Assembly (NCBI RefSeq): GCF_900110855.1
Contig: NZ_FOFA01000006.1
Coordinates: forward strand, 124,001 to 188,000
Direction: 5' to 3'
Source of the DNA: Microlunatus flavus
GTDB lineage: Bacteria; Actinomycetota; Actinomycetes; Propionibacteriales; Propionibacteriaceae
Length of the DNA: 64,000 nt
Shown: piece by piece, positions 1 to 10,806 of the stretch
Layout of the letters: each line of letters starts with the position of its first letter
How positions within the stretch are numbered: position 1 is the stretch's first letter
The notes under the pieces: generated by a model
What the model saw: only the letters and a program-made list of their open reading frames with translations
Told to the model about the DNA's origin: nothing
The model's database searches: none
Program-made: the position numbers and the translations under genes

Positions 1-660
1 CCACCGGAGGAACGGGCCGAAGTTGCTCTTCAGCGCGGTGCTGAAGTTGCCGACCGCCGGCGAGATGTCCTGCACCAGGCGTCCGGCACCTGTCGCGTCG
101 GTGTCGACGGTGGCCTCGCCGAAGGGGTGCTTGAAGGTCACGGTGGTGCTGCGCTGCGCGCCCTTGACGACGATGCGGGTCCGCGCGAACGTCAGCTGGT
201 CGCCGGCGATCGGGTCGTCGTTGGCGAAGGCCGCCTCCAGGCCGAGGGTCAGCGTCGCGCTGCCGCCGCCCGGCAGGGTGAGGCTGCTGTCCACCAGCTG
301 GTAGAAGAACTCCCCGGGGAAGTTGTCGGGGAACGCGACCGGGACGTCGGGGTCCGGGATGTCGCCCGGCAGGAACCCGCAGAGCGGGTCGTCCCCGTCC
401 AGGCAGGGCTCGACGCGGGTGCCCGCGCTGTCGCCGTACCAGGCGGGGAAGCCGTGGTCGGTGTTGACCGGTCCGACCGCGGTCAGGCCGCCCGGGTTCG
501 TGACCGTGACGCGCGTGACGGCCTCGGAGGTCGTCGCGACCCCGACCACCAGGAGGACGGTCGCCGCCGCACCGGTGAGGCGCCGGGCACGCCGGCTTCG
601 TCGGGCAGCGCCGCTGCGGGTCTGGGAGGGGTTCGTCACCCCTCGCGAGTAGTGCTCCAT
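1..660 (-). CDS. Secreted protein of unknown function (C-terminus beyond window)
   Basis: Read on the minus strand from ATG at 660, preceded by a GGGGGAG Shine-Dalgarno 6 nt upstream; the frame stays open to the window edge, so only about 220 N-terminal residues are visible. A basic arginine-rich n-region is followed by a hydrophobic segment (about residues 28-46), consistent with a signal peptide or anchor. The mature part carries a GFPAWYGD motif, then a CLDGDDPLCG Cys pair, then a beta-rich, Ile/Val/Thr-rich region. I recognise this motif pattern only as a recurring feature of exported actinobacterial proteins and cannot assign a function. It is divergent from the receiver-domain gene at 909 and shares with it the paired palindromes at 751-788, suggesting co-regulation with the multicopper oxidase cluster. 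Confidence 0.7.
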   Translation of the reverse strand, partial: MEHYSRGVTNPSQTRSGAARRSRRARRLTGAAATVLLVVGVATTSEAVTRVTVTNPGGLTAVGPVNTDHGFPAWYGDSAGTRVEPCLDGDDPLCGFLPGDIPDPDVPVAFPDNFPGEFFYQLVDSSLTLPGGGSATLTLGLEAAFANDDPIAGDQLTFARTRIVVKGAQRSTTVTFKHPFGEATVDTDATGAGRLVQDISPAVGNFSTALKSNFGPFLRW

Positions 661-750
661 CGTCGGCTCCCCCTGTCTCAGGTGCCCGTTCGCCGGGACG
701 CGGCGCAGGCAGGTGCGATCAGGCTCCGTCGGCGCCGGGGTCGCGAGGAA

Positions 751-788
751 CCCTCGATGAGGGGGGCGGCGCACCCACAGATGAGGGG
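751..788. promoter_or_regulatory. Paired palindromic operator A
   Basis: Two imperfect palindromes, CCCTCGATGAGGG at 751-763 and CCCACAGATGAGGGG at 774-788, lie with centres about 24 bp apart between the divergent secreted-protein gene (start 660) and response-regulator gene (start 909). The same C-run / 6-7 nt / G-run layout recurs at 1323-1362 and 5367-5403. Assignment as a regulator binding site is inference from repetition, symmetry and position. Confidence 0.55.
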
Positions 789-908
789 GCAGCGCTCGAC
801 CCCCGCGTCGGTGGGGACGGGCCGCACCCACGTGCGGGTGGCCCTTTGCCGTGCCGTGCCACATGCTGGGTCGCGAGGTAGGACGACGTCTGCGGCAGGA
901 GGTGGAGC

Positions 909-1307
909 ATGACCCGGGTGCTGGTCGTCGACGACCACGACTTCTTCCGCACGTGCATGGTGGACCTCGTCGCCTCCACCGCCGACCTCCGCGCGGTCGG
1001 GGAGTGCCGCGACGGCACCGAGGTGCTGGACGCCGTCCGCGTGCTGCGGCCCGACGTCGTCCTGATGGACGTCCGGATGCGGACGCGGACGGGGCTGGAA
1101 GCGGCCGCCGACCTGCGCCGCGCCGGCGACGGCGCCCGCGTGATCCTGCTCAGCTCCGACCCGGTGCACCGGCACCGACGCGCGGCCGAGCGCGAGGGCG
1201 TGGCGGGCTACCTCATGAAGGACGCGGACGCCTCACGGGTCCTCGAGGCGATCCGGCGGGTGGCGTCCGGGGGCACCGCGTGGCCGGAAGAGCGCCTCGC
1301 CGGCTGA
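909..1307 (+). CDS. Receiver-only response regulator (CheY-like)
   Basis: 132 residues forming a single REC domain with no output domain. Visible signature residues are the acidic pair D8/D9, the phospho-acceptor D54 (in VLMDVRM), the Ser of LLSSDP and K104 (in YLMKD). The sequence most resembles NarL/FixJ receivers that have lost their LuxR helix-turn-helix. The start ATG is preceded by an AGGAGG site. It lies upstream of the multicopper oxidase gene and divergent from the secreted-protein gene. A DNA-binding response regulator with a similar receiver sits at 4719-5384, so this protein may act as a phosphate sink, partner or heterodimerising modulator; no histidine kinase is nearby. The receiver assignment is secure; its role is inferred. 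Confidence 0.85.
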   Translation: MTRVLVVDDHDFFRTCMVDLVASTADLRAVGECRDGTEVLDAVRVLRPDVVLMDVRMRTRTGLEAAADLRRAGDGARVILLSSDPVHRHRRAAEREGVAGYLMKDADASRVLEAIRRVASGGTAWPEERLAG

Positions 1308-1322
1308 TCGGGCCGGGCGGCG

Positions 1323-1362
1323 CCCCCGCATTTGTGGGGGGACGCACCCCCACTCGTGAGGG
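1323..1362. promoter_or_regulatory. Paired palindromic operator B
   Basis: CCCCCGCATTTGTGGGGG (1323-1340) and CCCCCACTCGTGAGGG (1347-1362), centres about 23 bp apart, lie in the 187-bp gap before the multicopper oxidase gene, about 135 bp upstream of its start. This is the most symmetric of the three paired sites. It probably controls the oxidase-signal peptidase-CopD-like genes. Confidence 0.6.
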
Positions 1363-1494
1363 TTCTGCCAGCACCTCGGATTCGCGAAGGTTGGGTCTCG
1401 AACGGGGATCCAGCCTTCAGCACCCGAGCAGCGCCGGCACCGGCACCTCGACGCACCTGGTCCCCGAGCCACAGATTCCCGGGGGGGACCACAC

Positions 1495-3129
1495 ATGAAC
1501 GTCACACGACGCGACGCGCTCAAGCTCGGCGGACTGGCCGCCGTCGGCACGGCGGCCTTCGGGCTGCCGCTCGGCCGTTCGGTCAGCGGCGGCACGCCCA
1601 GCCTGCTGGCCAGCAAGAACTTCCCGCCGCGCTACACCAACGCCTTCCGGCCGCTCGAGAAGCTGGTGCCGACGGTCACGTACGACGCGGACGGACCGAT
1701 CCACAACTACGACATCTGGGCCAAGCCCGGGCTCGCCGGCATCGTGCCGGGCCTGCAGACGCCGGTGCTGGGCTACGGCGGCGTGGTGCCGGCGAAGCGC
1801 ATCGACGTGGACCAGGGCACGCGCATCACGATGACGATGCACAACCGACTGCCCGCCACCCACCCGGTCTTCGGCACGCCCGTGTCGATCTCGACCCACC
1901 TGCACGGCTCGGCCTCGCTGCCCCAGTACGACGGCTACGCCAGCGACCTGACCGAGTCGCAGCAGAAGAAGGTGTACCACTACCCGAACTTCCAGCCGGC
2001 CCGGACGCTGTGGTACCACGACCACGGCGTGCACTACACCGCCCAGAACGCGTACTCGGGGCTGGCGTCGCAGTACCACCTGCACGACCCCGACGAGCGG
2101 CGCCTGCTGCCCCAGGGCGAGTTCGACGTGGCCCTGACGCTGTCGGACATGATGTTCCAGGCCAACGGCTCCCAGCTGTACGACGACCGCTCGCACTCCG
2201 GGCTCTGGGGCGACGTCATCCTCGTCAACGGCACGCCCTGGCCGGTCATGAAGGTCAAGAAGCGGGTCTACCGGTTCCGGCTCCTGAACGCCTCGCTGTC
2301 GCGCTCCTACCGGCCCACGCTGTCCACGGGGGACCCCGTGTACATGGTGGCCACCGACGGCGGCCTGATGCCCGCGGTCGTGCCGGTCTCCGAGTGGCGC
2401 CACGGCAGCGCGGAGCGCTACGAGTTCCTCGTCGACTTCCGCAAGTACGCCACGGGTCAGCGCGTCGAGCTGAAGAACCTGAGCAACCCGAACAACCGCG
2501 ACTTCGACTTCACGGGCAAGATCATGGCCTTCGACGTGGTCGGCGACTCCTTCGACAAGACCGACCCCACCTGGGACCGGCCCAAGCCGGTCATGGCGCG
2601 ACCCAACGGCGACCCCCTCGCGAGCAAGGAGGTCATGGGTCTGACCGAGACCAAGGACATGAAGGTCGTCACCATCCGGGTGCAGCGCGACGACACGACC
2701 AACGAGTGGAACCTCAACGGCGAGACCTGGCACGACGTCGTCGACTCGGAGTACAAGAAGGTGCTGGCCAGCCCCGACCTCGGCGAGACCCAGGTGTGGG
2801 AGATCCAGAACAACTCGGGCGGCTGGTTCCACCCGGTGCACATCCACCTGATCGACTTCAAGATCCTCAGCCGCAACGGGCGAGCGCCCTTCGCCTACGA
2901 GCAGGGGCCCAAGGACGTCGTGTACGTCGGCGAGGGCGAGAAGGTGCGCCTGATCATGAAGTTCGGTCCGCACCGCGGCAAGTACATGGTGCACTGCCAC
3001 AACCTGCCGCACGAGGACCACGACATGATGCACCAGTTCAGCGTGGGCCTGAAGAGCGACGACGTCGACGACAACGACCCGATCCACGCCGACCCGGCCG
3101 TCGACGACGACTCCCCCACGGGCGCCTGA
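1495..3129 (+). CDS. Tat-exported multicopper oxidase (CotA/bilirubin oxidase-like)
   Basis: 544 residues. The N-terminus has a twin-arginine motif (TRRDALKLGG) followed by a hydrophobic stretch, so the protein should be folded and copper-loaded before export. All four copper-ligand motifs of multicopper oxidases are present: HLHG (135-138), WYHDH (173-177), HPVHIH (446-451) and HCHNLPHEDHDMM (from 500), the last supplying the T1 Cys, His and axial Met. Spacing and motif wording resemble CotA, bilirubin oxidase and phenoxazinone synthase rather than CueO; there is no Met-rich insert. Such enzymes oxidise phenolics, bilirubin-like compounds or metals (Cu+, Mn2+, Fe2+) with O2 reduced to water; the substrate here is unknown. 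The signal peptidase gene starts 4 nt downstream, so the genes are likely co-transcribed. Confidence 0.93.
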   Translation: MNVTRRDALKLGGLAAVGTAAFGLPLGRSVSGGTPSLLASKNFPPRYTNAFRPLEKLVPTVTYDADGPIHNYDIWAKPGLAGIVPGLQTPVLGYGGVVPAKRIDVDQGTRITMTMHNRLPATHPVFGTPVSISTHLHGSASLPQYDGYASDLTESQQKKVYHYPNFQPARTLWYHDHGVHYTAQNAYSGLASQYHLHDPDERRLLPQGEFDVALTLSDMMFQANGSQLYDDRSHSGLWGDVILVNGTPWPVMKVKKRVYRFRLLNASLSRSYRPTLSTGDPVYMVATDGGLMPAVVPVSEWRHGSAERYEFLVDFRKYATGQRVELKNLSNPNNRDFDFTGKIMAFDVVGDSFDKTDPTWDRPKPVMARPNGDPLASKEVMGLTETKDMKVVTIRVQRDDTTNEWNLNGETWHDVVDSEYKKVLASPDLGETQVWEIQNNSGGWFHPVHIHLIDFKILSRNGRAPFAYEQGPKDVVYVGEGEKVRLIMKFGPHRGKYMVHCHNLPHEDHDMMHQFSVGLKSDDVDDNDPIHADPAVDDDSPTGA

Positions 3130-3133
3130 GCCG

Positions 3134-3619
3134 GTGCGCGTCCGGGTCCTCGTCGCCGGAGCCCTGGCCGTGGCCGGGCTCGTCGCCGCACGGTTCACGG
3201 TGTGCGACGCGGTGCGGGTGTCCTCGGGCAGCATGGCGCCCACCGTGTGCACCGGGGACGTGGTCGTGGTCGACCACCTCGCCCCGGCGCGCGGGCTCGA
3301 GGTCGGCGACATCGTCACCTTTCCCCGGCCCGGCGACGGGGCCGAGCAGATCAAGCGTGTGGTCGCCACCGCACGGCAGACGGTGGCCATCGCCGACGCC
3401 GTGCTGCTGGTGGACGGACGTCGCGTCGACGAGCCGTACGTCGACCTCGCCACCATCGACGGCGTCTACTTCGGTCCCGTGACCGTGCCCGAGGGCGGCG
3501 TCTTCGTCATGGGTGACGACCGAGAGCTCTCGATCGACTCCCGCTCCTTCGGCCCCGTGCCCGAGAAGGACGTCGACGGTCGCCTGGTCGGCACCCTCTG
3601 GACCGCCTGCCCCGCCTGA
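3134..3619 (+). CDS. Small type I signal peptidase (S26 family)
   Basis: 161 residues with one N-terminal membrane segment (about 5-20) and a periplasmic-type catalytic domain. The nucleophile lies in VSSGSMAPT, the general-base Lys in QIKRVVA, and the conserved GDDRELSIDSRSFG box follows, so this is the bacterial Ser/Lys type, not the Ser/His SipW type. It is shorter than housekeeping LepB. It starts at a GTG 4 nt after the oxidase stop and is followed after 31 nt by the CopD-like gene. Location inside the cluster suggests a dedicated peptidase that matures the cluster's exported proteins; that is inference. Confidence 0.88.
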   Translation: MRVRVLVAGALAVAGLVAARFTVCDAVRVSSGSMAPTVCTGDVVVVDHLAPARGLEVGDIVTFPRPGDGAEQIKRVVATARQTVAIADAVLLVDGRRVDEPYVDLATIDGVYFGPVTVPEGGVFVMGDDRELSIDSRSFGPVPEKDVDGRLVGTLWTACPA

Positions 3620-3650
3620 GGCGGGATCCCGCTCGAGCCAAGGAGCACCG

Positions 3651-4625
3651 ATGTCCACCCTCGTCCAGCGCACCGCGCCCAGCGTGCGAAGCGGGCCGCA
3701 CGACCTGGCCCGGACGCGGCCCGACGTCATCGGCACGGCCGTCCTGGCGGTGCTCGCGCTCCTCCTCGGCGTGCGCTGGTGGCAGCACGCGGACGGCGTG
3801 CCCCTGTCCTGGGGACCTCCGCCCGCCGAGGCGCTCTTCCTGCTGCCGGCCGCCCCCGTCCTGGCGCTCCTCGGCCTGCGCAGCGCCACTCGCGGAGGCG
3901 GCGCACCGCCCGGTCACGTCGCGCGCGCCGCCGCCCGCTGGGCCGCCGTCTGGGCCGCCGTCGGCACGGCCTGGCTGCTCACCACCGTCACCCGTCTCTA
4001 CGGCACAGGCCTCGCGGGCCTGCTCCAGGTCGACAACCTGGTCGCGGTCCTCAGCGCCAGCGACGTGGTGCTCCCCCGCCTGGCCGCCGTCTGGGTCGCC
4101 CTGCTGGTCGCCCTCTTCGCCCGGAGTCTCGATCGTGCGCAGTCGCTAGCCGCCCTCGCCCTCGTGGGTGCCGCTCTGCTCGCCGTCGCACCGGCCGGCG
4201 GCTCCGGCCACGCGCACGCCGAGCAGGCCCACCCCCTCGTGCAGGCAGCGGCAGGGGCCGAGCTGCTCGCGCTGGCACTCTGGTCGGGCTCGATCGTCGC
4301 GGCGTTCCACCTGCGCACACCGATCCTGCGGACGCGAGGCCATCTCGAGCGTTGGGGTCTTCTCGTCTCGGGCGCCGCACTCGCCCTCGGCGCGGCGCTC
4401 GTCCTCGCCGGTCTGGCTCGCCCGGAGCAGCCGGCTCCGGCCGCGTTCGCGGCAGGCCGGCTCGCCGCGGTCGCGGCGGTCGTCGGGGTCGGCCTGCGGC
4501 ACCGACGGCGCACCCTCGAAGCGGTCAGCGCGGGCCCCGCCGGGCTGATGGGAGCCCTGGTCGGCGCCGAGCTCACCGTCCTCGCGGCGGCCGTCGCCCT
4601 CACGCTGGTCCTCGAGCTCGCCTGA
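3651..4625 (+). CDS. CopD-like polytopic membrane protein
   Basis: 324 residues from ATG 3651, preceded by AAGGAG. About eight hydrophobic segments span most of the protein. The central part (HPLVQAAAGAELLALALWSG) resembles the copper-resistance CopD membrane domain, where a His-bearing helix precedes an aromatic-Gly motif; a GSGHAHAEQAHP loop supplies several His that could bind metal. It is the third gene of the apparent oxidase operon. A role in moving copper toward, or electrons around, the exported multicopper oxidase is plausible but inferred. The similarity is weak enough that an unrelated integral membrane family cannot be excluded. Confidence 0.65.
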   Translation: MSTLVQRTAPSVRSGPHDLARTRPDVIGTAVLAVLALLLGVRWWQHADGVPLSWGPPPAEALFLLPAAPVLALLGLRSATRGGGAPPGHVARAAARWAAVWAAVGTAWLLTTVTRLYGTGLAGLLQVDNLVAVLSASDVVLPRLAAVWVALLVALFARSLDRAQSLAALALVGAALLAVAPAGGSGHAHAEQAHPLVQAAAGAELLALALWSGSIVAAFHLRTPILRTRGHLERWGLLVSGAALALGAALVLAGLARPEQPAPAAFAAGRLAAVAAVVGVGLRHRRRTLEAVSAGPAGLMGALVGAELTVLAAAVALTLVLELA

Positions 4626-4693
4626 CCGCCACGCCGTGACCCAGCCGAGCCACCCTCGCAGGAGGGCCGTACCCGAGGCTTGCGTGCAGGACC

Positions 4694-4713
4694 GGTCCCC
4701 CGGGGGTAGGACC
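4694..4713. promoter_or_regulatory. Inverted repeat upstream of LuxR-type regulator
   Basis: GGTCCCCCGGGGGTAGGACC has flanking GGTCC/GGACC arms around a C5/G5 core, and ends 5 nt before the GTG start of the response regulator. It could be an autoregulatory operator or an mRNA hairpin; the C-run/G-run core recalls the cluster palindromes. Confidence 0.35.
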
Positions 4714-4718
4714 GAGAC

Positions 4719-5384
4719 GTGAGCACCGACGACGCGTCGCCGACCAGCACCGTGCTGGTGGTGGACGACCACCGGGCCTTCGCGGAGATGCTGGCGACCG
4801 CCCTCGACATGGTCCCCGGCCTGCGGTGCATCGGCACCGCCTTCACCGCCGCCGACGGCATCGCCCTCGCGGCCCGGCTGCAGCCCGACCTCGTGGTCAT
4901 GGACATCCAGATGCCGGACGAGGACGGGCTCGCGGCGACGGCCCGGCTCCGTGCCGCCGCACCGGCGGCCATGGTCGCCGTCGTCACCGCCCACACGTCG
5001 CCGGAGTGGGTGGGCCGCGCCGCCCAGGCGGGGGCGTCCGCCTTCATCCCGAAGAACGGCTCGCTCCGGGAGATGATCAGCGTCCTCACCCGGGTGCACG
5101 CCGGGCACATGTCCGTGGCGCCCTCGACCTACCTGGTCCCGCCCTCTCCTCCGCCCGCTCCACCGCCCGCCGCCCTGAACCAGCGGGAGCTCGACGTGCT
5201 GCGGCTGCTCGCCACCGGGACACCCGTGAAGGATCTGGCCGTCACCCTCGGCATCACCGTCAGCACGTGCCGGAGCTACGTGAAGTCGCTCCGGCAGAAG
5301 CTCGGGGCCAAGAGCCAGCTGGACGCCGTCCTCAAGGCCCGGGAGCAGGGCCTGCTCGGCACGGACCCCCCTGAATTGGGGTAG
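4719..5384 (+). CDS. NarL/FixJ-family response regulator with LuxR-type HTH
   Basis: 221 residues. The REC domain (about 11-130) has the acidic pair in VVDDH, phospho-acceptor D62 (in VMDIQMPDEDG) and a Lys in FIPKNG. A Pro-rich linker ([12 protein letters not shown]) leads to a GerE/LuxR helix-turn-helix near residues 152-205 with the usual LNQRELDVLRLLATG start. The start is a GTG. It closes the oxidase cluster and is the only DNA-binding regulator there, so it is the natural candidate to bind the three paired palindromes; one pair overlaps its own stop codon. No cognate histidine kinase is encoded in the window. Confidence 0.9.
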   Translation: MSTDDASPTSTVLVVDDHRAFAEMLATALDMVPGLRCIGTAFTAADGIALAARLQPDLVVMDIQMPDEDGLAATARLRAAAPAAMVAVVTAHTSPEWVGRAAQAGASAFIPKNGSLREMISVLTRVHAGHMSVAPSTYLVPPSPPPAPPPAALNQRELDVLRLLATGTPVKDLAVTLGITVSTCRSYVKSLRQKLGAKSQLDAVLKAREQGLLGTDPPELG

Positions 5385-5403
5385 CCCGACCCCTCATCTG
5401 AGG
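5367..5403. promoter_or_regulatory. Paired palindromic operator C
   Basis: CCCCCTGAATTGGGG (5367-5381) runs into the stop codon of the LuxR-type regulator, and CCCCTCATCTGAGG (5390-5403) follows with a centre-to-centre distance of about 23 bp. The arrangement matches pairs A and B. No convincing gene begins directly downstream, so its target is unclear. Confidence 0.5.
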
Positions 5404-5919
5404 ATGTCGCCCACACGCTGCCCCGCGCCACGATGACCACGACGCGCAGGTCCGCGACCGGGGGCGACCAGCCCACCGGCCGCCCCGGCTGCCGTCACCG
5501 CGCACGCGGCCACCGACCACACGCCCCTGGTCGGTGGGTCCCGCGTCGTCGAGGGTCCGCCGCGATCCCGCCGCGGCGGACCCTTCTGGTCCCCGGTCGC
5601 GAGCGAGGCCCGGGCGTGCCGTGGTTCCGACCGCCTCGCCCACGCGCCGTGCCCTGCTCGACCCTCGACCACGCCGACGGGTGCGTCGTCGTGGCAGTGC
5701 TCTGCGCCTTGCGCCGGACGGCGCCCGCGACTCTCCTGATCGCGACGAGGTTCGAGGTCCGCCCGCGGGACGGCCGGCGATCTCCGCCTCGTCGCCGTGC
5801 CTGGTCGTGGCTCGACCCTCCGCCGACCGAGTTCTTGACTGGTTCGTCCAGAATGCCTAGTGTTCTGGAACGAACAGTCAACAACGGGCGGCGCCCGTCG
5901 TCCACGAAAGGAAGCCCTC
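5385..5919. other. Intergenic region without a recognisable gene
   Basis: Starts with half of operator C and ends with a TetR-style operator-promoter at 5835-5881. The roughly 430 bases between them are open in several frames but give only Arg/Pro-rich, low-complexity translations with no family resemblance. A TetR gene would be expected divergent to the SnoaL-like gene, but I see none on either strand. Confidence 0.5.
5835..5881 (+). promoter_or_regulatory. TetR-type operator overlapping a sigma-70 promoter
   Basis: Two 19-bp arms, TTGACTGGTTCGTCCAGAA (5835-5853) and TTCTGGAACGAACAGTCAA (5863-5881), form a near-perfect inverted repeat. The left arm begins with a -35 (TTGACT); a -10 (TAGTGT, 5858-5863) follows after exactly 17 bp. 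Repressor binding would cover the promoter. The controlled gene is the SnoaL-like CDS at 5920, and probably the MFS gene after it. Confidence 0.7.
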
Positions 5920-9797: not shown

Positions 9798-10395
9798 GAA
9801 GAAAGACCTCTCGACTGCTCTGGGCGTTTACGGGCAGGGCTCGGCCAGTGGATGTCAACAGCCGCTCCAAGAAGCATTCTGGCACGGGCATCCAAAGACA
9901 CAAGGGCAGCCGAAGGGAAGTTTCTCAGGGTCGTTCAGGATGTTCGCTGGGCGAGGGCGCGTGGGACCGTGCCCACCGCCTTCCCGCCGTACCGAGCGCG
10001 AGCTCGGCGCGGCGCCCCATGGACGGTGGCGTCTGCTGCTGGATCGCGAAAGCCCTTGGCTCCTGGAGGACGCCGACCTCTTCGAGGCCCTTCGACAGGC
10101 TCAGGGAGCGTCCCCACGCCCACCTCGTCGAGGCCCTTCGACAGGCTCGGGCAGCGTCCCCACGCCCACCTCTTCGAGGCCCTTCGACAGGCTCAGGGAG
10201 CGTCCCCACGCCCACCTCTTCGAGGCCCTTCGACAGGCCCAGGGAGCGTCCCCACGCCCACCTCTTCGAGCCCTTCGACAGGCCCAGGGAGCGTCCCCAC
10301 GCCGACCTCTTCGAGGCCCTTCGACAGGCTCAGGGAGCGTTCCTGCGCCGACCTCTTGGACCCTTCGACAGGGCGAGATCAGGAAGCGAGCCGGG
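9798..10395. other. rpoD upstream region and repeat array
   Basis: About 280 bases directly upstream of rpoD (which reads leftward) should hold its promoter and a long leader; no clear -35/-10 pair can be singled out. The rest, from about 10075, is a tandem array of REP-like units that ends just before the convergent-side uspA stop. No gene is supported here. Confidence 0.5.
10075..10380. repeat. Tandem array of seven 46-bp REP-like units
   Basis: The core CCCTTCGACAGGCTCAGGG, followed by GAGCGTCCCCACGCCCACCTC and a short TTCGAGG link, begins at 10088, 10134, 10180, 10226, 10271, 10317 and 10361: a period of 44-46 bp. Individual units differ by single bases (GCTCAGGG or GCCCAGGG, ACGCCCAC or ACGCCGAC). 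The same core appears singly at 16012-16092 and 22511-22660, always between genes. Confidence 0.85.
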
Positions 10396-10806
10396 TCAGG
10401 GCTGCTCGGCCTTGACGGCCAGGACGGGGCAGGCGGCGTCCAGCAGGACGCGCTGGGCGTTGCTGCCGAGCAGGAGCTTGCCCACCGGTGAGCGGCGCCG
10501 CAGGCCAATCACGATGAACGCGGCCGACGTGGACTCGGCCAGGTCGAGCAGGTCCTCGGCGAGGTCGCCGCCGTCGGCCGAGCTCTCGAGCCGGTGGGCC
10601 ACCCCCGAGGTCTGCAGCTCCGACTCCAGCTCGGTGACGTCGTCCTCCGGCCCGTGCAGGACCACCAGGGACGCACTGCGCAGCGTCGCCTCCGCGACCG
10701 CGCGCCGCAGCGCGGCCCGGCCCTCCGGGCGCGAGCTGTAGCCGACGACGATCTGCGCCGCGTCGGGGCGCACGTCCTCGCGGCTCGTCTCGTCGACGAC
10801 GGTCAC
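10396..10806 (-). CDS. Universal stress protein family (UspA-like)
   Basis: 136 residues with one Usp domain: the first strand QIVVGYSSRPEGRAALRRAV, an acidic middle, and the nucleotide-binding tail IGLRRRSPVGKLLLGSNAQRVLLDAACPVLAV, which matches the G-2x-G-9x-G-(S/T) ATP-binding Usp motif. It starts at a GTG whose last bases overlap the TGA of the upstream ligase gene (GTGA at 10803-10806), so translation should be coupled. It likely serves as an ATP-binding stress or signalling partner of that enzyme. Confidence 0.9.
   Translation of the reverse strand: MTVVDETSREDVRPDAAQIVVGYSSRPEGRAALRRAVAEATLRSASLVVLHGPEDDVTELESELQTSGVAHRLESSADGGDLAEDLLDLAESTSAAFIVIGLRRRSPVGKLLLGSNAQRVLLDAACPVLAVKAEQP

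Follow-up and report, generated by a model that had tools for sequence, protein, structure and literature searches.

Paired inverted repeats near secreted oxidase genes of Microlunatus flavus as predicted operators of a NarL-family two-component system

A 64,000-nucleotide stretch of the Microlunatus flavus genome (hereafter the window; contig NZ_FOFA01000006.1, positions 124,001 to 188,000) carries three closely spaced pairs of C/G-rich palindromes in a gene cluster for a multicopper oxidase. These pairs are probably operators, as predicted from their sequence and that of nearby regulators, of a NarL-family two-component system through which a set of secreted oxidases is switched jointly. The pairs are real and are found again in related bacteria, in front of secreted copper oxidases, haem peroxidases and companion proteins, which makes one shared two-component switch the most likely explanation.

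The components of a candidate switch are encoded close by. Response regulator b (RR-b) lies in the window, and a paralogous NarL-type regulator, RR-a, is encoded beside its histidine kinase about 6 kb left of the window (L010 7967-10020). RR-b has the receiver and GerE helix-turn-helix domains of NarL-family regulators, over which the paralogues align, and the kinase that adjoins RR-a is of the HisKA_3 type (PF07730, PF02518). We compared 20 genomes of the genus, in which this genome is designated G000 and G140 is a draft of 130 contigs.

Results

The paired sites form a defined motif that stands out from the window

The first-pass annotation, made from the DNA letters alone, had placed pairs at 751-788, 1323-1362 and 5367-5403. 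All three are present there, the third having its first site inside the last codons of the LuxR-type regulator gene, at whose end it had been reported. Each site is a 16-bp inverted repeat, CCCCyCA-nn-TGrGGGG, with two heptamers inverted around a 2-bp gap (7-2-7). The C/G palindromes described at first pass as C4-N(6-7)-G(3-4) are therefore retained in kind, with a different spacer: CCC-N8-GGG, that is 7-2-7, is the best common frame. Site starts lie 23 bp apart in pair A, 24 in pair B and 23 in pair C, in agreement with the 23-24 bp proposed. Across the 22 pairs of our alignment (A3) the spacing is 23-25 bp in 21 and 22 bp in one (L119); the later pairs were sought with a spacing of 23-25 bp preset, and the single-site ranking described below had no spacing rule.

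Pair A belongs to an array of at least three sites plus a weak fourth, placed between two divergent genes. Its steps are 23 and 28 bp in the window and 24 and 29 bp in two relatives, G018 and G088, where the counterparts of the third site (L050 7756 and L051 7810) keep the same larger step (28-29 bp); the fourth site is also found in G018. The third and fourth sites had not been recorded in the first-pass annotation.

We ranked single sites with a 16-bp position weight matrix (PWM) of imposed symmetry; its training set was 20 sites from nine promoter stretches in other genomes (L046, L050, L051, L052). Once overlapping shifts are set aside, the six reported sites outscore everything else in the 64-kb window, with scores from 16.8 down to 11.4 (Table 1); site A3 comes next (8.8), then an unrelated place (8.2). 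Because the seed consensus of this matrix was written after the window had been seen and the training stretches were chosen by eye, we also derived a control motif de novo, with seeds taken purely from the relatives' intergenic DNA (2893 bases; 1300 of 2703 possible seeds) and no symmetrisation. The best such motif, nCCCTCATnnGnGGnG, falls on the same 7-2-7 axis and, one overlapping shift aside, ranks five of the six reported sites at the top of the window; the sixth (5390) scores 8.9 and is 15th of the 16 places listed. By sequence, then, the sites have the 7-2-7 inverted-repeat form of NarL-family operators.

At a spacing of 23-25 bp, the pairs in the window that score at least 14 are the three reported ones (28.6, 27.3 and 23.7) and the third and fourth sites of array A. 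Among sixty first-order Markov versions of the window, two pairs reached a score of 17, the higher of them 17.3; in real DNA away from the known places (218,014 bases), no pair scored that high.

The sites are conserved at orthologous promoters

Gene order is largely kept in G018, G088 and G140. The oxidase promoters of all three genomes, including both G140 loci (contigs C84 and C131), carry a pair that ends 133-156 bp before the ATG; over five promoters the gaps are 131 (the window), 140, 133, 146 and 156 bp. L046 and G140:C84 were taken as one locus, having the same match. Absence of the sites from orthologous clusters, which the first-pass annotation had named as evidence against itself, is thus not what we observe. 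A sigma-70 promoter scan found none, and none was expected.

A kinase and a NarL-type regulator are encoded in all six clusters compared (the window with L010, L009, L046, L050, L051 and L055). The second cluster of this genome (contig C9, L009) comprises genes for an Fn3-type secreted protein, an oxidase, a membrane protein, both regulators and a kinase, and the pair upstream of it (15.6 and 11.1) consists of the two best PWM sites of those 18 kb. The second G088 cluster (L055) has RR-a, the kinase and a weaker pair (9.5 and 9.3), and no RR-b was found within L055. In G140, pairs with scores of 17.9-28.1 occur on contigs C84, C131, C34, C54, C70, C120 and C134. Strict CCC-N-GGG pair expressions were dropped as too strict for G140 and the second clusters. 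In G088, the oxidase genes beyond the first (second and third) and the second kinase gene (L055 16471-18754 and 13189-14530; L102 2558-5903) each give a match broken into two pieces that lie in different frames, resembling a frameshift.

A pair model recovers further secreted oxidases and companions

A sequence-only model of 14 pairs (R1), run on the 20 genomes, returned seven places outside its training set at E<=0.3. Five of these stand before a secreted oxidase or companion: a haem peroxidase in this genome (C7) and another in G088, a homologue of the secreted protein SEC (G140:C54), a SEC2 homologue (G140:C34) and a third oxidase locus (G088:C1:1699080). The other two are partial matches in G148 and G130, which lack the oxidase system. 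A second model of 22 pairs (R2) gave no match below E 0.39 in any such non-carrier and added two places, both in G140: a SEC homologue on C134 (34% identity, E 3e-25; pair 28.1) and a multicopper oxidase of a different type on C120 (18.0).

A motif scan of related genomes, as suggested at first pass, recovered pairs at the orthologous clusters together with new members. Conservation at orthologous promoters, and members that were predicted and then found, lend good support to the first-pass proposal of an undescribed regulon centred on the oxidase. That proposal drew the regulon too narrowly, as haem peroxidases and further oxidase loci belong to it too. Away from the clusters, no NarL-type regulator or kinase was detected at E<=1e-10 (stretches L099-L102, L116, L119, L126 and L052), which fits a regulon that acts at a distance.

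Several candidates were set aside: one at G000:C11, inside a coding frame; G088:C1:3885852, a borderline match before a Tat-like secreted protein, with no PWM pair; a borderline match at G140:C28; G018:C1:3096266 (L120), beside a relaxase-like gene; and L121 and L123, which had no PWM pair. On G140:C34 (L100 4397-5094), a second copy of the pair precedes a degenerate-looking SEC2-like frame that adjoins the intact SEC2 gene with its own pair.

Short haem peroxidases are part of the set

Animal-type haem peroxidases (PF03098, E<=1e-8) occur in the same four genomes as the oxidase, and in each of them one short peroxidase lies behind a pair (L099, which is G000:C7, L050, L051 and L119). In two of them the pair ends 58 and 62 bp before the ATG; counted by hand, the gap is 64 bp in L051 and either 15 or 114 bp in L119, depending on which of two start codons is taken. 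In G018 and G088, the RR-b orthologue is followed by pair C, a second pair, a structured stretch and the haem peroxidase gene. In the window, pair C therefore sits where its relatives have two pairs, a structured stretch and a peroxidase; the peroxidase gene of G000 lies elsewhere, on contig C7. That gene (L099 4027-5740) is split over two frames, through gene breakage or an assembly error, and is intact in G018 and G140.

Long peroxidases that combine PF03098 with PF00353 haemolysin-type calcium repeats and fn3 are encoded in G088 (L116 2817-11390) and G140 (L118 7308-12503). The calcium repeats were not found in a Pfam scan of three short peroxidases (L050, L099 and L119). On G140:C18 (L118, 6422-12503), a homologue of RR1, the single-domain response regulator of the window, stands back to back with the long peroxidase, a MopA-like protein of 1731 aa with RTX calcium repeats, and a weak pair (16.8) lies near the start of this divergent RR1 homologue.

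Oxidase, regulator and peroxidase share a patchy distribution

The oxidase (E<=1e-60), the regulator family (E<=1e-40) and the haem peroxidase (E<=1e-8) are found in the same 4 of the 20 genomes. In a SigA gene tree, weak as a species tree because it represents one gene, the carriers occupy three separate spots: G000 with the non-carrier G074 (support 0.98), G018 with G088 (1.00), and G140 with the non-carrier G152 (0.97). SigA identity to G000 is 91% and 89% in the non-carriers G074 and G114, 84% and 81% in the carriers G018 and G088, and 93% in G140, where it covers residues 110-482 only.

At wider ranks the sample comprised 394 genomes from the class and 197 from the family, and the oxidase (E<=1e-60) is present in 5 of the 197. 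At the loci of oxidase homologues in Cellulomonas, Nocardioidaceae and Geodermatophilus (L047-L049), neither a match to the NarL-type regulators or kinase nor a pair scoring 14 or more was found. In G198 and G507, regulator homologues (L066, L067) have an adjoining kinase, with no oxidase match and no pair, and the G124 oxidase locus (L054) has distant regulators and no pair. The regulon was thus not traced beyond the genus in this sample.

Genes and other features of the cluster

The coordinates of the sites and genes are collected in Table 1. RR1 is kept beside the oxidase in four clusters (the window, L046, L050 and L051), where it may serve as a phosphate sink or assist the NarL-type regulators as a partner. 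Among solved structures, the chains nearest to the window oxidase are bilirubin oxidase (E 3e-82) and CotA (E 6e-59). Genes for a CopC-CopD fusion and a DUF1775 protein also lie left of the window.

Behind pair C, the segment 5404-5600 folds with a z-score of -2.9 (2 of 200 shuffles were equally good), and the corresponding stretch of G018, hairpin included, with a z-score of about -3.0. The terminator-like hairpin, which is strong and rich in GC, is kept in both G018 and G088. The stretch 5404-5585 has no Rfam match and is possibly a small RNA under control of the regulon. Further along, at about 9900-10450, near-identical short repeats form an array with repeated peptides in several frames, upstream of a sigma-70 gene.

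Table 1. Paired sites and neighbouring features, in window coordinates
Feature	Position	Strand	Remarks
Secreted protein SEC, N-terminal part	1..660	-	Runs on left of the window (L010 12706-14661, 651 aa); homologues behind a pair in G140
Site A1 (array A)	750-765	.	PWM 11.8
Site A2 (array A)	773-788	.	PWM 16.8, top site of the window; rank 2 with the de novo motif
Site A3 (array A)	801-816	.	PWM 8.8
Site A4 (array A), weak	826-841	.	801/826 pair score 15.2; R1 match 124801-124838, E 1.05
Single-domain response regulator RR1	909..1307	+	PF00072 E 2e-20; receiver only, no Pfam output domain
Site B1, 5' of multicopper oxidase	1324-1339	.	PWM 14.8
Site B2, 5' of multicopper oxidase	1348-1363	.	PWM 12.5; ends 131 bp before the ATG
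Multicopper oxidase, bilirubin oxidase/CotA type	1495..3129	+	PF07731, PF07732; copper ligand motifs by eye
Signal peptidase I	3134..3619	+	PF10502, TIGR02227
Membrane protein	3651..4625	+	No Pfam match; similar genes in G018, G088 and G140 clusters
NarL/LuxR-type response regulator RR-b, candidate binder	4719..5384	+	PF00072 and PF00196
Site C1, within final codons of RR-b gene	5367-5382	.	PWM 11.4
Site C2	5390-5405	.	PWM 12.3; de novo motif 8.9
Possible small RNA behind pair C: structured, terminator-like hairpin at 5551-5585	5404..5585	+	Fold of 5404-5600: z -2.9

Discussion

A predicted two-component switch and its likely regulator

We infer a scheme in which the membrane histidine kinase (L010 8638-10020) would sense an outside signal and phosphorylate one or both of the NarL-type regulators, RR-a and RR-b. 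Dimers of the regulator would bind the 7-2-7 inverted repeats, and two dimers, about two and a quarter helical turns apart, would act cooperatively on RNA polymerase, presumably activating transcription rather than repressing it. The predicted target promoters, at which the pair ends 58-156 bp before the start codon, would serve the multicopper oxidase, its secreted companion, the single-domain response regulator, the animal-type haem peroxidases and the further oxidase loci.

As to which paralogue is the predicted binder, the comparison favours the kinase-linked RR-a, or both regulators, over RR-b alone. At first pass RR-b had been taken as the probable binder. The sites could belong to it alone, with the kinase-linked paralogue serving other genes; RR-b is encoded inside the oxidase cluster of G000, G018 and G088, and again in the second G000 cluster. 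Two genomes argue otherwise and make this arrangement unlikely. G140 keeps the pairs and has a single regulator of the family at E<=1e-40, which is kinase-linked and branches on the RR-a side (support 0.92), and the second G088 cluster combines its weaker pair with RR-a and a kinase, with RR-b missing from the stretch read.

A number of observations weigh against a NarL-type switch governing all of these genes. RR-a and RR-b differ at several helix-turn-helix positions, so that binding of one motif by both is an assumption, and the link from regulator to operator is a prediction from sequence. A symmetric frame was imposed in the PWM (not in the de novo motif), and the pair models had their spacing preset. 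The E-values of these models are per genome, so that at E<=0.3 some six matches across the 20 genomes would be due to chance; it is gene context alone that makes five of the seven R1 places convincing. At four places (L120 4259, L124 4627, L053 14661 and L118 5533) the genes beside the pair are unlike those of the set. Conversely, the more distant oxidase genes of G140:C11 (L053) and G124 (L054) have no upstream site above 2.4, the stretches around the long peroxidases of G088 (L116) and of G140:C18 at 36.8 kb (L117) gave no pair scoring 14 or more, and none of 17 or more lies near the kinase/regulator operon.

A different class of protein might be invoked, namely a metal-sensing repressor such as CsoR, which uses G-tract operators. 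C/G-tract palindromes and copper-type neighbours (CopC, CopD, DUF1775) would suit such a repressor. CsoR operators take a G-tract form to which neither the CCC-N8-GGG frame nor the paired arrangement conforms, and its family does not follow the sites: PF02583 is present in 19 of the 20 genomes, whereas pair-model matches better than E 0.09 (R1) or 0.39 (R2) are confined to four, chance-level matches raising the totals to 13 genomes (R1) and 9 (R2) at looser limits. The one copy detected in G000 lies away from the cluster, on a different contig (C16). The distribution expected of a CsoR regulon is thus not seen, and we reject CsoR as the binder, a role that we consider very improbable.

It also seems scarcely credible that RNA hairpins or G-tract DNA structures, and not protein binding, account for the pairs. 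Every site could form a hairpin if transcribed, but positions that do not pair are conserved as well (CCCCACYCGTGAGGGT in 4 of 4 B-type pairs of G000, G018 and G088), the step is near-constant, array A lies between divergent genes, and the distribution is shared with a DNA-binding regulator. Chance, finally, has been refuted for the set of sites, though single weak members may still be due to it. In its favour, a loose 14-base single-site pattern shows no excess in this GC-rich genome (99 matches against 107 for a control); against it stand the PWM ranking, the Markov and real-DNA controls, the de novo motif and the positional conservation.

Significance and a possible role in manganese oxidation

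The analysis turns the palindromes into a usable operator motif, one that points to secreted oxidase genes across genomes and has already led to types outside its training set. A NarL-type switch of this kind would also place multicopper oxidases together with haem peroxidases of the animal type under a single two-component system. We found no published account of this regulon or its operator, or of such an actinobacterial system, in a search outside which most subscription journals fell.

More tentatively, we propose a dedicated actinobacterial Mn(II)-oxidation regulon, in which one NarL-type system with its own tandem operator would drive unrelated classes of secreted oxidases with their companions, the package being gained and lost as a unit. 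The classes would be the bilirubin-oxidase-type and other multicopper oxidases, the short haem peroxidases and, in G140, the MopA-like long peroxidase beside a single-domain regulator. We think this doubtful as it stands; it is a proposal only, and the role may also lie in phenol oxidation, pigment formation or copper handling. The regulatory mechanisms of bacterial manganese oxidation are called unknown in the available text of one account (PMC11930936). Should the enzymes oxidise manganese, the system would represent a second, unrelated regulatory design for this process.

Comparison with known systems

NarL binds inverted heptamers with a 2-bp gap (7-2-7), with tandem sites at E. coli ogt (excerpted text of PMC7419079), and DevR/DosR promoters carry two or more packed Dev boxes, the near one over the -35 element (excerpted text of PMC3029386). 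The sites described here are likewise tandem 7-2-7 repeats, and they accompany regulators with receiver and GerE domains and a HisKA_3 kinase. They depart from NarL at ogt in the operator, CCCCyCA-nn-TGrGGGG, and in the tighter step, 23-25 bp as against ogt centres at -44.5 and -77.5. The targets differ from those of NarL and DevR, and the extra single-domain regulator is a further distinction.

Pseudomonas putida GB-1 possesses the haem peroxidase MopA besides two multicopper Mn oxidases, and its two-component pathway includes the sigma54-type regulator MnxR; in the portions of the sources available, mopA showed no activity in the wild type and is not given as a shown MnxR target (PMC11930936, PMC11409713). 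As with MnxS1/S2-MnxR, a two-component system coexists here with multicopper oxidases and an animal haem peroxidase in one organism, a combination found in the same 4 of 20 genomes. MnxR is sigma54-dependent, whereas RR-b has a GerE domain and no sigma54 activator domain in Pfam, and its paralogues align over the same length; because its regulator is thus of another class, NarL-type, the system does not belong to the MnxR type.

MopA itself combines peroxidase and calcium-binding domains (excerpted text of PMC6247904), as do the long peroxidases of G088 and G140. The short peroxidases of the regulon lack calcium repeats in Pfam, and a weak pair accompanies a long peroxidase in L118 only. CotA of Bacillus pumilus oxidises Mn(II) in vitro (excerpted text of PMC3618234); the window oxidase is in the same sequence family as CotA and bilirubin oxidase, and any likeness in substrate is by analogy only. 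On these comparisons, the regulon would resemble a NarL-type regulon in the way it works, and its target set recalls the Mn-oxidase set of P. putida.

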